Assembly: GCA_903919985.1 (NCBI GenBank)
Contig: CAIXKG010000204.1
Span: forward strand, 1-56,869
Reading direction: 5' to 3'
From: an uncultured Opitutia bacterium
GTDB lineage: Bacteria; Verrucomicrobiota; Verrucomicrobiia; Opitutales; Opitutaceae
Length of the DNA: 56,869 nt
Position numbers and translations under genes: made by a program. Below are positions 8,958-38,325 of this stretch, one piece after another. The notes beneath the pieces are model-generated. The model was not told the DNA's origin. It saw only the letters and a list, made by a program, of their open reading frames with translations, and did not search any database. Positions within the stretch are counted from its first letter, which is position 1. Each line of letters opens with the position of its first letter.

Positions 8958-9417
8958 GGGAACGCTAATCTTCGCTAATGAACGCTAATCTCATGAAACC
9001 GGAAATCTATAGGGAGGAGGGATACAAATTCATGGGCGCGGCATTCGAGGTCTACAACGACCGCGGTTACGGTATGGCGGAGGAGATTTACCAAGAGTGC
9101 TTGGAGATCGAACTGGAGCTACGGGCCTTCCCGTTCCATTCCAAACAAGAGCTGGTCAGTTTCTATAAAGGCCGCGAACTCAAGAAGGCGCTACCTGCCC
9201 GACCTGTTCGTATTTGGCTGCCTCGTCGTGGAACTAAAGGCCGTCACTCAACTCACTCCCGACCACGAGGCCCAACTCTACAATTACCTCCGCCTCACGC
9301 GTCAGCCCGTCGGGTACCTCATCAACTTCGGACACAAGGACGCCCTCGAATGGAAGCGTCTCATCCTCTCCGAGTTCATTCCGTCATCAGCGCAGATTAG
9401 CGCAGATTAGCGTTCCC
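8958..9417 (+). mobile_element. Inverted-repeat-bounded module carrying a GxxExxY gene
   Basis: The terminal arms at 8958-8979 and 9396-9417 are inverted copies of one another at 21 of 22 positions, built from iterated CGCTAATCT units and beginning GGGAACGCT. The module starts four bases after the upstream permease stop and ends one base before the next permease ATG. Its only content is a GxxExxY-family gene whose stop codon lies inside the right arm. No target-site duplication is evident. No transposase is encoded, so mobility would have to come from the GxxExxY product itself or from outside. Confidence 0.7.
8993..9410 (+). pseudogene. GxxExxY family protein, broken by a one-base frameshift
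   Basis: The N-terminal part reads GYKFMGAAFEVYNDRGYG, EEIYQECLEIEL and FYKGRELKK, the hallmark of the small GxxExxY family, often considered nuclease-like because of a PD-(D/E)xK-like core. After ELKK the frame breaks: an extra G at about 9187-9188 moves the rest (RYLPDLFVFGCLVVELKA, then YNYLRLTRQPVGYLINFG) into the +1 frame. Removing one base restores a normal protein of about 138 residues. An alternative ATG at 8978 lies inside the repeat arm. It sits between two transporter permeases with which it has no functional link. Confidence 0.82.
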
Positions 9418-31559: not shown

Positions 31560-31979
31560 GGGGAATTGGAGTCTGTGATCATACCCACCCGCCCGCAGAC
31601 TTCAATCGCGGACACCACAAACCGGCATCATGCGACGCCGCTGAAAACCAGCGCGGCGAACCGAACCCGATAAAGACAGCGGCGAAATAAGGCCCGGTGC
31701 CGCACCTGCAACACGTCACCTATTAAGTGACATTCCCGCGGAAAACCACGCCCTCAAGGCGAGCGAGGATCAACCCGACGTGGCGCGCCAGCGCCGAAGA
31801 AAAACCCGAAGTCCGACCCGTAGTTCACCACGCAGGACTCCATACGGACGGCTCTTGAACTCGGAAAACGTCCCCGTCTCAAACGGTGAATGTCACTTAA
31901 TAGGTGACGTTCAGCTCGGCTGAGCTCCGTGAGCTCGTGGAGGGCCGAAATCAGCGCGGAGTTTTTCAGGCGAGCGGGC
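31560..31979. other. Intergenic region dominated by an inverted-repeat element
   Basis: About 420 bases with no convincing gene. The centre is the 198-bp inverted-repeat element at 31713-31910. A minus-strand frame crossing its right end has no recognisable product. Confidence 0.5.
31713..31910. mobile_element. MITE-like element with perfect 23-bp terminal inverted repeats
   Basis: Positions 31713-31735 and 31888-31910 are exact inverted copies (23 of 23) containing GTCACCTATTAAGTGAC, itself a hairpin. The 152 bases between encode no transposase. No target-site duplication is obvious. It fits a small non-autonomous element or a pair of protein-binding palindromes. Confidence 0.6.
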
Positions 31980-34385: not shown

Positions 34386-37028
34386 TCATGTCTCCTGCCG
34401 CAAAATTTCCAGCGGCGGATGATCCGTCACGCCGCGATTGGCGAGCAGCCCAGTGATGAGCGTCACGCTCGACGCTATCGCGACCGCTCCGAGCACCAGC
34501 AGCGGCGGAGCCGAGGGGGCGAGATGGAAAACATACTTAGCCAACAGCGCGTTACCCGCGATCGCGAGTCCGCCACCGACCACCGCCGCGAGCACGCCGA
34601 GGATCGCGTATTCCACCATCTGGATTTGCACGAGTTGGCGCCGCGTCGCACCGAGCGTCCGCAGCAAAACCGTTTCGCGCACGCGTTGATACCGCCCTGA
34701 CAGCACCGCACCCGCCAGCACGATGATACCCGTCGCCACGGTGAACAGCGCCATGAACTGAATCACGAACGCGACCTTTGAAAAAATGCTGTCGAGCGTT
34801 TCCATCACGAGCGCGAGATCGATCGCCGACACATTCGGAAACGCGCCCACTACCTCGCGCTGGACTCGCGCCGAATCCGCCGGCGTGGCCGTGCGCAGCG
34901 CCGCGACAAATGTCTTCGGAGCGCCCTCGATCGCGCCCTCGGGAAATACCACAAAAAAATTGGAGTCGAGCCGCCGCCATTCCACGGCGCGCACACTCGT
35001 TACTTTAGTCCGCACCGGTACGCCCTGCACGTCCCACTCGATTTCGTCGCCCAGCTCCAGTTGAAGGCTTTTCAGAAAACTTTCCTCGACCGAAATGGGC
35101 ACCACCGCTACGCCGGCCGACACCTGGCCGTCGAACTTGCCCGCGACCACGCGCTCGGTGCCGCTCAATTTACCGCGGTACGTCGAACGGTATTCGCGTC
35201 CCAACATGCCATTGGCCATACGTCCGCCGGGTTCACCCCCACGACCCAACCGCCCGCCACCTGCACCACGCCGCGTCCCGCTGCCTGGGGGCGGCGGGTT
35301 GGGATCATCCGACAGTGAGAGGTCCGGCGCAGCACTCACCCGCGGACGCGTGATTTCCTGCACCGTGCGGCCTTTGAGCGCGGCGATTTTCATCGTCACA
35401 ATCGGAGCCTGCTGCAGCACCGGCGCACCCTGAGCGACCGCCAGTTTATCGAAGGCCTCGATTTGGTCGTCCTGGATATCGAAGAACAAGAGATTGGGCC
35501 GCGAGCCGCCGCCGACGGCATCGATTTCGCGCAGCAAGGTTGTGCGCGTGAGGTAAAGCGTGAGAATTAAAAACGTCCCAAGACCGAGCGAAAGCAGCAG
35601 CAACACGGTGCGGTTGTTCGGCCGGTGCAGATTCGCCACGCCCTGCCGCACCACGTACGGCAGCGCGCGGGGTACCCAGCGACGGGCGGCCCACGCCACC
35701 CCCGCTGCGAGGCCGGCGAGCACGCCGAAGCCCACCGCCAGCATACCCGTGAAACCCAGGCCAATCCGCCAGTTGTGCGTCTGCGTATAGGCGAAGCCCG
35801 TGACGGCGACGACGATCAAGGCCACGATCAGGATACGCCAAGGATCACCCACGCCCCCGACGCGTTCCGCGAACGCCGAGCGCAGCGCCACGAGTGGCGA
35901 AACTCGCCGTACCGCGAGCAGCGGCAGCAGCGTGAAGAGAAGCGAGATCACCAGCCCGGCGGCCATGCCGCGTCCGACCTCCGCCCACGCGATGAAGAAA
36001 TCGACCTGAAACGGCAGCATACCCTTCAACATCGCGGGCAACGAGAGCTGCAGCGCCACACCGAGTGCGCCGCCCAGCACCGCGCCAAAAATCCCAAGCG
36101 CGAAGCCCTGCACCAGATAAACCGCAAAACTCTGCCCGGCGCTCGCACCCAGACAGCGCAGCACGGCCACCGTGGTGATTTTTTGCCGTACATACACATG
36201 GATGGCGCTCGCGACGCCGATCGCGCCGAGGAACAGCGCGATAAAACCCACTAGATTAAGAAAGCCCTCGATGTTAGTCAGCACCTGACCGAGATCACGT
36301 TTGCGCTCGGCGACGGTCGCCGCCGACACCCGGCGTCCGCGAAATTTGTCCCGAATCTCACGATCGATGACATCGGGATCGCGTCCCGCCGGCAGCTTCA
36401 GCAGCACGCGGTGTACGGCGAGATTTTCTTTGTTCCCGAGCTCGGTCGATTCCAGCCGGCTCATTGGAATAAAAGCGCGCGGGGCAAACGTCGCAATGGC
36501 GGACGACTCGCCGGGGACTTTTTTCAAGGCCGCAGCGACGATGAACGTGGCCTTGCCAAGCTTCACGCTGTCGCCGGGTTTGACGTTAAACTGATTGAGT
36601 AACGTCTCCTCGAGAATCACGACCGCTTCACCGGCCCGCAGCCGGGCGGGAGCGTCGGCGGGCGACGTTTCAAAATCGCCGAAGAAAGGAAAATTTTTCT
36701 CAACCGCCCGCACCTGCACGAGCCGCGTGGCATTCGCCGCGGTGGGAAACACCAGCATCGACGAAAATTCGGTGGTGGCCGATTGTTCGCCGCCGAGCGC
36801 GTCAAGGTAGGTCTTAAGGTCCGCATCCGGAGCAGCGCGGGAGGTCACGATCAGATCCGCGCCGAGGAGGCCCTTGGCCTGCAGATCGATGGCGTCCTTG
36901 AGATTGACGGTGAATGAACCGATCGCCACGAGCGCGGCGATGCCGAGGACCACCGACGACGAGAACAGCGCCAGCCGCTGCCGCGAAGCCCGCGAATCCC
37001 GCCAGGCCATTTTTAAGATGAAGTTCAT
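34386..37028 (-). CDS. ybbP: FtsX-like ABC exporter permease, YbbP-like
   Basis: An 880-residue inner-membrane permease with two FtsX-type modules. Four hydrophobic segments lie near the N-terminus and around residues 260-420, two follow at about 430-520, and the final module (VAFVIQFMALFTVATGIIVL onwards) closes the C-terminus. Each module has a large periplasmic loop; the second contains a Pro/Gly/Arg-rich insert of about 35 residues (near PNPPPPGSGTRRG). Size and architecture fit E. coli YbbP, the partner of YbbA. Here a GxxExxY module separates it from ybbA by about 570 bp, and a TesA-like gene is divergent from ybbA, as in E. coli. Confidence 0.88.
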   Translation of the reverse strand: MNFILKMAWRDSRASRQRLALFSSSVVLGIAALVAIGSFTVNLKDAIDLQAKGLLGADLIVTSRAAPDADLKTYLDALGGEQSATTEFSSMLVFPTAANATRLVQVRAVEKNFPFFGDFETSPADAPARLRAGEAVVILEETLLNQFNVKPGDSVKLGKATFIVAAALKKVPGESSAIATFAPRAFIPMSRLESTELGNKENLAVHRVLLKLPAGRDPDVIDREIRDKFRGRRVSAATVAERKRDLGQVLTNIEGFLNLVGFIALFLGAIGVASAIHVYVRQKITTVAVLRCLGASAGQSFAVYLVQGFALGIFGAVLGGALGVALQLSLPAMLKGMLPFQVDFFIAWAEVGRGMAAGLVISLLFTLLPLLAVRRVSPLVALRSAFAERVGGVGDPWRILIVALIVVAVTGFAYTQTHNWRIGLGFTGMLAVGFGVLAGLAAGVAWAARRWVPRALPYVVRQGVANLHRPNNRTVLLLLSLGLGTFLILTLYLTRTTLLREIDAVGGGSRPNLLFFDIQDDQIEAFDKLAVAQGAPVLQQAPIVTMKIAALKGRTVQEITRPRVSAAPDLSLSDDPNPPPPGSGTRRGAGGGRLGRGGEPGGRMANGMLGREYRSTYRGKLSGTERVVAGKFDGQVSAGVAVVPISVEESFLKSLQLELGDEIEWDVQGVPVRTKVTSVRAVEWRRLDSNFFVVFPEGAIEGAPKTFVAALRTATPADSARVQREVVGAFPNVSAIDLALVMETLDSIFSKVAFVIQFMALFTVATGIIVLAGAVLSGRYQRVRETVLLRTLGATRRQLVQIQMVEYAILGVLAAVVGGGLAIAGNALLAKYVFHLAPSAPPLLVLGAVAIASSVTLITGLLANRGVTDHPPLEILRQET

Positions 37029-37034
37029 GAAGAA

Positions 37035-37596
37035 TTGCCCACGGAACACACGGAATACACGGAAATCTCAGAGGACGAAGCGCTCATGTTCGATTTTGGG
37101 AAAGTGGCCAAAGTTTACGAGCAGCCCGACCCGAAGGCCCGTCGCGTGAAGATAATTTTGAACCTGAGCGCGATGCTCGTCGACCAGCTTGGACACCGCT
37201 TTTATTTCCACGATCACTTTGCCGAAGCAGACAAAATCCGCGACGTAGCGCTGCTTGAGCGGATGCCCCTTGTAGTTCAAGGCGAGCTGCACGAGCGCCT
37301 TCGCCGGAATTTCCCTCAGTTGGAATTCTATTTCGAGGCACTCCTGAAATACCGCCTCAAGAAACCCACAGCCCTTGTCACGATAAACTTCAAAGCATGC
37401 TCCGAGAAGCCGGTACGTTTCGTCCTCGTTGATAAGTTTACCCATGATCCCTCTTCCGTGAATGCGGTTTTTTCGGTGAACAACTTCAGCCTCTGTCATA
37501 ACTCCTCCTTCGCGGAGGGGACATTCGATCATTTGCTCGAAATAAATCCTGCGCCTCATTTCTTGTTTCCGTGTGTTCCGTGTGTTCCGTGGGCAA
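37035..37596. mobile_element. Inverted-repeat-bounded module carrying an intact GxxExxY gene
   Basis: Arms at 37035-37065 and 37566-37596 are inverted copies matching at 30 of 31 positions, starting TTGCCCACGG and built from CACGGAA iterations. The module begins six bases from the ybbP start codon and ends two bases from the ybbA stop codon, so it occupies exactly the gap within the ybbA-ybbP pair. The only cargo is a GxxExxY gene on the minus strand whose stop codon is next to the left arm. No transposase is present. Confidence 0.75.
37068..37445 (-). CDS. GxxExxY family protein (intact)
   Basis: A 125-residue soluble protein of the GxxExxY family: ETYRLLGACFEVYRDKGCG, FLEAVFQECLEIEF, LNYKGHPLKQRYVADFVCFG, VIVEIKAVSKL and LHATGLRVGLLVNFGH. 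The D-x(n)-E-x-K arrangement (ADFVCFG, VEIKAV) looks like a PD-(D/E)xK nuclease core; the biological role is undefined. The start at 37445 is preferred because MGKLINEDETY matches the family and an AGAGGG lies just upstream, one of the few Shine-Dalgarno sequences in this window. It is boxed by inverted repeats and its stop codon nearly touches the left arm. Confidence 0.88.
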   Translation of the reverse strand: MGKLINEDETYRLLGACFEVYRDKGCGFLEAVFQECLEIEFQLREIPAKALVQLALNYKGHPLKQRYVADFVCFGKVIVEIKAVSKLVDEHRAQVQNYLHATGLRVGLLVNFGHFPKIEHERFVL

Positions 37597-37598
37597 AC

Positions 37599-38291
37599 TC
37601 AGCTTCTGTCATCGCTCACCACCGCGCCGTTTTTGAGCCGGATCACGCGCTGACATTTCCGCGCCAGCTCCATGTCGTGGGTGACGAGCACCAGCGTCGT
37701 TCCTTTTTCGCGGTTCAATCCGAACACCAAATCCACCATCGCCGCCGCGGTGTCGCCATCGAGATTTCCCGTCGGCTCGTCGCAAAACAAAATCTTCGGC
37801 CGGTTCATGAACGCCCGCGCCAGCGCCACGCGCTGCTGTTCGCCGCCAGAAAGCTGCACCGGATAATGTTCACACCGCTCGGCCAACCCAACCCGTCCAA
37901 GCAAGGCCCGCGCTTCCGCTTCGGTCGCCGCGCCGCCTTCACCGCGCAATTCGAGCGGGACGAGCACGTTCTCCAGTGCCGTCAGCGTCGGGATCAATTG
38001 GAAATTCTGAAACACAAAACCCACGTGCGCGTTTCGCACCCGTGCGCGGCCGTCTTCGTCGAGCGCACCCAGTTCTGAGCCGGCCACGCTGACGGTCCCG
38101 CTCGAAGCCCGGTCGAGCCCCGCGCACAAACCGAGGAGCGTCGTCTTCCCGCTCCCGCTCGGGCCCACGATCGCCAGACTCGCACCGGCCTCGAGGTCGA
38201 AGCTCACCTCCCGCAATACCGTCAAAGGGCCCGCCGCCGTGCGGTAACTTTTGGTGAGTCGCTCGACTTTCAAAATGGATTGGACACTCAT
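37599..38291 (-). CDS. ybbA: ABC exporter ATP-binding protein, YbbA/LolD-like
   Basis: A 230-residue ABC ATPase of the MacB/LolD/YbbA type. Walker A GPSGSGKTTLLGL (about residue 42), Q-loop FVFQNFQLIPTLTAL, signature LSGGEQQRVALARAF, Walker B ILFCDEPTGNLDGDTA and switch His in LVTHDMELA are all present. It works with the FtsX-type permease encoded downstream. In E. coli, YbbAP is linked to the divergent esterase TesA and the same arrangement exists here (38400, divergent). The GxxExxY module begins two bases after the stop codon. Confidence 0.9.
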   Translation of the reverse strand: MSVQSILKVERLTKSYRTAAGPLTVLREVSFDLEAGASLAIVGPSGSGKTTLLGLCAGLDRASSGTVSVAGSELGALDEDGRARVRNAHVGFVFQNFQLIPTLTALENVLVPLELRGEGGAATEAEARALLGRVGLAERCEHYPVQLSGGEQQRVALARAFMNRPKILFCDEPTGNLDGDTAAAMVDLVFGLNREKGTTLVLVTHDMELARKCQRVIRLKNGAVVSDDRS

Positions 38292-38301
38292 TAAGTCGCT
38301 T

Positions 38302-38325
38302 ACGAAACACACGAAACCCACGAAA
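38302..38325 (+). repeat. Half-repeat with iterated ACGAAAC units
   Basis: TACGAAACACACGAAACCCA with one further CACGAAAA unit, in the divergent gap between ybbA and the TesA-like gene. It resembles one arm of the iterated inverted-repeat modules. No convincing opposite arm is seen. Confidence 0.4.

Follow-up and report, generated by a model that had tools for sequence, protein, structure and literature searches.

In the window, by which we mean the whole 56,869-nt stretch of DNA analysed, the genes for a ybbA-like ABC ATPase (37599..38321, ORF as listed) and a ybbP-like FtsX permease (34386..37028) lie on the minus strand and are separated by a block at 37035-37596. In the direction of its gene the block begins with a 5' arm (37566..37596, minus strand; TTGCCCACGGAACACACGGAACACACGGAAA) that consists of three CACGGAA units with 2-nt spacers. 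It ends with a 3' arm (37035..37065, minus strand) that is the 5' arm inverted, matching at 30 of 31 positions. The two arms of 31 nt each are 97% complementary and 500 nt apart, and they enclose a single GxxExxY gene (37068..37445, minus strand; 125 aa from the ATG at 37445). The 5' arm is separated from the ybbA stop by 2 nt and the 3' arm from the ATG of ybbP by 6 nt. Both this design and this placement had been claimed in the initial annotation and were confirmed by reading the sequence. The enclosed protein is a full GxxExxY / PDDEXK_3 protein which scored 130.4 bits with TIGR04256 (cut-off 35) and 132.8 bits with PF13366 (cut-off 22). In a Pfam scan of the element PF13366 was the only match and belonged to its single gene, and no DDE or HUH transposase was found in it, which bears out the claim of a unit that carries no classical transposase.

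An in-frame ATG at 37499, upstream of the ATG at 37445, is preceded by a Shine-Dalgarno-like GGAGG. Besides, the ybbA tail and the 5' arm occur once more inside the element as a degenerate copy (37454..37504, minus strand; 73% against 37567-37617), which lies in another frame and lengthens the GxxExxY ORF. Across the 56.9 kb, three inverted pairs reached a blastn score of at least 34 with a span below 700, namely 37035-37596, 8958-9417 and 31713-31910. The pair at 8958-9417 belongs to a second element on the plus strand, with a 5' arm of CGCTAAT units (8958..8989), a GxxExxY gene that carries a frameshift and appears as two HMM pieces (8993..9359; pieces 9017-9187 and 9156-9359) and a CGCTAAT-type 3' arm (9386..9417). 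A second copy at 8958 had been proposed; it shares the design of the block but is a different element, with arms of another type and a frameshifted gene. The pair at 31713-31910 (ACGTCACCTATTAAGTGACATTC, 23 nt, 198 nt span) is unrelated, contains GTGAC repeats and is perhaps another small hairpin element.

Arms and heptamer words of GxxExxY loci

The genome to which the window belongs (G000; 2.6 Mb, 213 contigs, 79% complete) contains four GxxExxY genes. Clear arms with differing words flank three of them; the fourth, the frameshifted L003, has a 25-nt pair that is 80% complementary and whose score of 25 lies below the control 95th percentile. Among G000 and 37 relatives GxxExxY was found in 24 of the 38 genomes, and 12 congeners had 0 to 7 matches each, with none in six. 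Merging split matches of one gene, we obtained 92 loci from the matches in these 38 genomes (the relatives' set). Their inverted-arm score averaged 40.6 compared to 18.9 for mismatched flank pairs, and 61 of the 92 loci reached the mismatched-pair 99th percentile (35) and 77 the 95th percentile (26). Outer-flank control pairs from 85 loci had a mean of 19.0 and a maximum of 25. A multi-phylum set was built from one genome per species within one protein clade and comprised 80 loci among the matches listed (585 confirmed relatives), to which 3 IMG/VR loci were added; 79 of the 83 were scorable. Among the matches listed, 66 of 79 loci scored above the maximum (26) of 62 outer controls and 30 of 79 reached the mismatched 99th percentile; at 45 this percentile is high, as one and the same word recurs at different loci. 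According to the record titles these listed loci represent many phyla, and clear arms were present at two of three archaeal loci. Arms had been expected around other GxxExxY genes and were indeed found at most of those tested in both sets, in which the median element span was 468 and 465.

The usual arm unit is CRCNRAN, present three times per arm and inverted at the two ends, with spacers of mostly 1-3 nt. In 51 of 64 arms a shift of 9 or 10 nt gave the best match of the arm to itself. For the analysis of the word, 175 loci were narrowed to 142 with an arm score of at least 27, to 113 with at least 4 units and to 110 with an open frame, including the frameshifted L004; this count favours the main word type, since elements with TCAGGAA, AACGAAG and other words fall outside it. 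In these 110 elements base 7 equalled the majority of its element in 617 of 633 units and was the same in both arms without exception (110/110; shuffled mean 53.7), being G in 71, T in 26 and A in 13 elements. The arms agreed at base 2 in 108, at base 5 in 107 and at base 4 in 90 of the 110 elements. On the protein tree, which is based on 128 columns and has many unresolved forks, base 7 changed 7 times (shuffled mean 35.2, minimum 28), or 6 times compared to 24.1 in the relatives' set alone. Bases 2, 5 and 4 changed 19, 14 and 23 times (shuffled 29.2, 25.8 and 41.8), and genome labels changed 45 times over 54 rows. Therefore, the word follows the protein clade and not the host. Joint descent alone could be the source of this link between arm and protein.

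In 40 sequences, the window protein and relatives, E30, D70 and K82 were invariant and E80 nearly so. The window protein keeps the catalytic residues of PD-(D/E)XK enzymes and is predicted to be a nuclease. Several T-word clades have D-x-K in place of E-x-K. The copy at the ybbA-ybbP site of G006 (L029) has QPK where others have E-x-K and has thereby lost the glutamate, so this copy may be catalytically dead. Moreover, the protein showed weak similarity to Cas4 (E 0.008), and a search for relatives among defence proteins, phage families and solved structures returned weak matches only.

Occupied and empty junctions among relatives

Among 18 ybbA loci 16 junctions were read (14 plus those of G004 and G007); G016 was left out, and ybbA of G001 ends at the contig end. 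As the initial annotation had assumed, the gene pair is nearly contiguous elsewhere: the junction was empty with overlapping stop and start in six congeners (G002, G003, G005, G008, G009 and G012) and also in G019, and a gap of ~20 nt was present in G018. Inverted hairpins that contain no gene occupied the junction in G011 and G017. Elements filled it in G000, G010, G004, G006, G007 and G015, and arms plus the downstream flank were seen in G001. These elements belong to the types CACGGAA (G000, G010, G001), CACGAAA (G006, G007) and CGCGAAT (G004, G015), and G004, G010 and G007 differ in type although their loci share 85-92% identity. A second junction, which is occupied by element L060 in G007, was compared in genomes other than G008. 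Six congeners have a gap of 18-23 nt there, other hairpins are located in G010, G004, G006 and, in degenerate form, G000, and G011 has 277 nt of other sequence.

Two copies in G031 lie 2.3 kb apart and are 95% identical with unlike flanks, and the match ends at the arm ends. Their pS of 0.115 and pN of 0.024 show purifying selection on the GxxExxY protein in this recent pair. Likewise, a pair in G017 (83%) and an S23 pair in G031 (92.7%) match only between the arm ends. Sites shared by descent also exist, as L023 and L025 are 95% identical over 3.3 kb. When the ends of 102 elements, taken as they stand with no empty site of the same species for reference, were scanned for target duplications at offsets of 0-12 on both sides and lengths of 2-9 (1,352 combinations), no consistent direct repeat emerged and the largest excess was 5 matches compared to 0.9 expected. 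Carriage by phages or plasmids was rejected, as the window protein matched none of 50,697 phage records and 7 of 72,556 plasmid records, and one GxxExxY clade yielded 3 loci in IMG/VR. A scan of inverted pairs for site preference in ~30 kb around ybbA was dropped; it was unusable because at its threshold the ybbA elements of G004 and G007 went unnoticed and other pairs were picked up in G007 and G003. Away from ybbA, G007 has an iterated inverted pair (AATCGAAAATCGAAAATCCG, 261 nt span; L323 19123-19383, C68, about 46.1 kb).

The CACGGAT arms of L060 match dozens more places, chiefly in G006 (49) and G010 (41), with flanks and both strands counted. Forty such places were fetched, and 17 of them have inverted CACGGAT-like arms with a score of at least 30 and spans of 72-190 bp; the remaining ones are weaker, single arms or unclear. 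The neighbours of 20 places with longer flanks, including 3 single arms, were co-directional in 17 and divergent in 3 cases and never convergent, and the background junctions of six congeners around ybbA comprised 82 co-directional, 26 divergent and 26 convergent ones. Ten of the 17 hairpins with a defined span are located in co-directional gaps that would measure at most 40 nt if the hairpin were removed, where negative remaining gaps, caused by ORFs running into the arms, were counted as tight. Such gaps make up 1.6% of the background intergenic bases (p 2e-14) and 25% of the junctions (p 0.003). Four CACGGAT hairpins (L284, L288, L300 and L307) are enclosed by or adjacent to a larger palindrome that has GGAACGATGC-like ends, and here a small element seems to be nested in another.

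The proposal of a small mobile unit is strongly supported by the empty or variously filled junctions of congeners, by copies that are limited to the arm ends, by the gene-less relatives and by the patchy presence. The block is not found at this locus in all relatives, and arms flank most of the other GxxExxY genes tested. Presence and absence at a fixed site among relatives is joined by copies at unrelated sites, as is looked for in a mobile element. Hence, that the mobility of the family is real and general is well supported.

Sense placement and possible modes of movement

With a codon-model caller both neighbours ran in the direction of the element gene at 61 of 68 loci of the relatives' set, at 25 of 26 loci with S23 genes (PF05635) and, among the matches listed, at 51 of 59 multi-phylum loci. 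The input was 92, 30 and 83 loci, and the others had no called neighbour within 450 nt. A stricter score gave 49/52, 20/20 and, again among the matches listed, 29/30. When GxxExxY sites were grouped into flank clusters, with multi-phylum loci counted singly, 99 of 113 were sense, 4 antisense, 7 convergent and 3 divergent (stricter score 65/68). As a control, neighbouring genes elsewhere in these loci, with no element between them, both ran in the element direction in 43 of 58 pairs, which is what operons would give. RAYT elements, evaluated with the same kind of caller, were in sense at 8 of 16 loci (Fisher p 0.002 compared to GxxExxY plus S23); of 20 fetched one was left out and three were missing one or both neighbours, and the ends of four loci were set by eye. 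The orientation result depends on the codon-model caller because this replaced a cruder first caller, which had given 34/72 sense pairs in the relatives' and 47/65 in the multi-phylum set, was poor in GC-rich loci and was contradictory at orthologous sites. Applied to the element's own gene, the codon-model caller chose the right strand in 70 of 92 cases and the wrong one in 4, with 18 uncalled, and at the ybbA site L001 and L026 were left without their left neighbour. Where both neighbours were in sense (55 and 49 loci of the two GxxExxY sets), a median of 9-10 nt separated the upstream stop from the 5' arm and 13-14 nt the 3' arm from the downstream start; for S23 (16 loci) the medians were 16 nt and 6 nt.

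The coupling of protein and word and the sense placement are the surprising parts of these results. Ordinary DNA transposition does not explain a sense orientation in operon gaps. This placement requires either that insertion is coupled to transcription or to translation signals, or that expression of the element gene is strongly selected. Gene-less forms occupy similar places, which favours coupled insertion, yet they may be remnants left behind.

We consider it probable (roughly 0.6) that the block is a member of a widespread mobile family whose very small elements (~465 bp) are moved by their own GxxExxY proteins. Movement by the protein itself is inferred, and so are the following steps. 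The GxxExxY protein would bind DNA at the arm heptamers of its own element and read base 7 above all. A multimer could hold both element ends together, and the protein would nick or cut at the arms. Subsequently, the element would be copied or pasted into the gap between stop and start in a transcribed operon, with no duplication of the target, and gene-less hairpins might be moved in trans by proteins of the same word.

A different possibility is movement at the RNA level, in which the arms pair in the transcript and the excised piece re-enters transcribed regions in sense by splicing or retro-copying. The sense placement at 99 of 113 sites between co-directional genes would fit such a process, and the similarly built intervening sequence (IVS) of the 23S rRNA of Coxiella is cut out of the rRNA by RNase III (PMC4990558). 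A stem that is selected in the sense transcript should, however, show an excess of mismatches that keep a G-U pair. No such excess was observed, since 137 mismatches keep and 160 break the pair (p 0.20), and in the relatives' set the values of 45 and 72 (p 0.016) point in the opposite direction. Selection on an RNA stem was therefore rejected. Moreover, PF00078, the only reverse transcriptase family searched, had no match in the element-rich genomes G015, G017 and G031, which disfavours a dependence on reverse transcriptase. Spacer lengths were the same in both arms in 72/74 and 67/74 cases, where the alignment helps. The spacer bases agreed between arms at 75 of 130 and 79 of 145 positions (shuffled means 50.9 and 53.9; maxima 63 and 69), which is above chance, as RNA pairing would predict, yet far below the agreement of the units. 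The arms look like DNA sites for a protein at fixed spacing, with both arms of shared recent ancestry; protein sites alone do not explain the agreement of the spacer bases. Taken together, we regard a route through RNA as quite unlikely.

It is also unlikely, in our view, that a factor from another part of the genome moves the hairpins and that GxxExxY is cargo; a RAYT/Y1 transposase would be one example of such a factor, and machinery that also serves S23 elements another. GxxExxY genomes tend to hold S23 and Y1 genes, which makes such a factor possible: PF05635 was found in 21 of 24 GxxExxY genomes and in 0 of 14 others (G000-G037), long-frame Y1 proteins co-occur with GxxExxY, and some sites are used by both S23 and GxxExxY elements. 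Nevertheless, GxxExxY genes occur in G035, where Y1 had no match, and conversely G009 and G012 contain a long-frame Y1 but lack GxxExxY. The RAYT-like Y1 genes of the same genomes (L351-L370) have a spanning inverted pair of their own in 15 of 20 loci, mostly GGGTCA with variable inner parts, and these ends are of a different kind from those of GxxExxY. RAYT was therefore rejected as the mover despite its co-occurrence. Besides, the arm word tracks the GxxExxY tree and the protein is under purifying selection in the recent pair, which is not what cargo would suggest. Finally, the block might be a fixed, vertically inherited regulatory module whose hairpin tunes operon expression and whose protein acts on the hairpin. 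Some sites are occupied in several species, as for L023 and L025, and the 3' arm lies close ahead of the next start codon. We consider this explanation very improbable given the congeners with an empty site, the three element types at one junction and the copies at unrelated sites.

If movement by the GxxExxY protein is true, it would provide a role for a widespread protein family for which no known function was found in the papers retrieved, and it would tell where the CACAGAG- and CACGGAT-like repeats of GxxExxY genomes come from. An arm word that varies with the protein would represent a natural recognition code that is open to testing. If autonomous, the element would to our knowledge be among the smallest autonomous mobile elements. 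A search of the literature other than subscription journals and preprints for GxxExxY, PDDEXK_3/PF13366/TIGR04256 and arm-like strings found no description of these elements.

Relation to known systems

PD-(D/E)XK proteins linked to mobility include TnsA and the Rpn/YhgA-like proteins of PF12784. They belong to the same nuclease superfamily as the GxxExxY protein; here, in contrast, PF13366 is the only family present and the whole element consists of one 125-aa gene. PF12784 has been mentioned together with a MITE in one report (PMC4853749). As with MITEs and REPIN/RAYT systems, there are hairpins that lack a gene, share their ends with a coding relative and are dispersed in intergenic regions. 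However, the ends of the element are unlike RAYT ends, no DDE or HUH protein is present and no target duplication was detected. Heptamers that resemble the GxxExxY arms were described for the TAACTGA repeats of Beggiatoaceae, which are direct, mostly intergenic and mostly in forward direction to the downstream start; in the part of that report consulted no gene or inverted partner is tied to them (PMC4679880).

The closest resemblance is to the 23S rRNA IVS. Its inverted stem measures 28 bp in Coxiella, where three GACAGAT heptamers lie ahead of an S23 ORF, and it was called selfish and of unclear origin in that study (PMC4990558). As in the GxxExxY element, one small ORF lies between inverted ends with tandem heptamers. 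The Coxiella heptamer (PMC4990558) differs from the GxxExxY word CACAGAT in the first base only, a hint that the two may share a recogniser or an origin. However, S23 (PF05635 / TIGR02436) is a four-helix bundle unrelated to GxxExxY, and the IVS lies inside 23S rRNA with a 7-nt period, whereas GxxExxY elements lie between protein genes with a period of 9-10 nt. Tested as an IVS, the window element had no PF05635 protein and was not located in a 23S rRNA gene. With another protein and another place but the same architecture, the block is therefore not an IVS by membership, yet it is built like one. Moreover, iterated inverted arms were present at PF05635 loci of the genomes analysed here, where 17 of 30 tested loci (L126-L155) were at or above the control 99th percentile and 12 of these 17 had a period of 7. 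These PF05635 genes lie between protein genes, in sense with co-directional neighbours at 18 of 19 sites.

Tentatively, and with somewhat less than even odds, we suggest that the GxxExxY elements form a class of their own. This class would be defined by an autonomous unit of ~465 bp that is run by a single 125-aa PD-(D/E)XK protein, by about six end heptamers which this protein reads, by a word (CRCNRA plus G, T or A) that the protein clade dictates in bacteria as in archaea, and by insertion in sense between stop and start within transcribed operons, and the IVS would be its counterpart with a four-helix bundle. In that case the open origin of the 23S rRNA IVS becomes testable, as it would have relatives outside rRNA and a parallel family with a nuclease.
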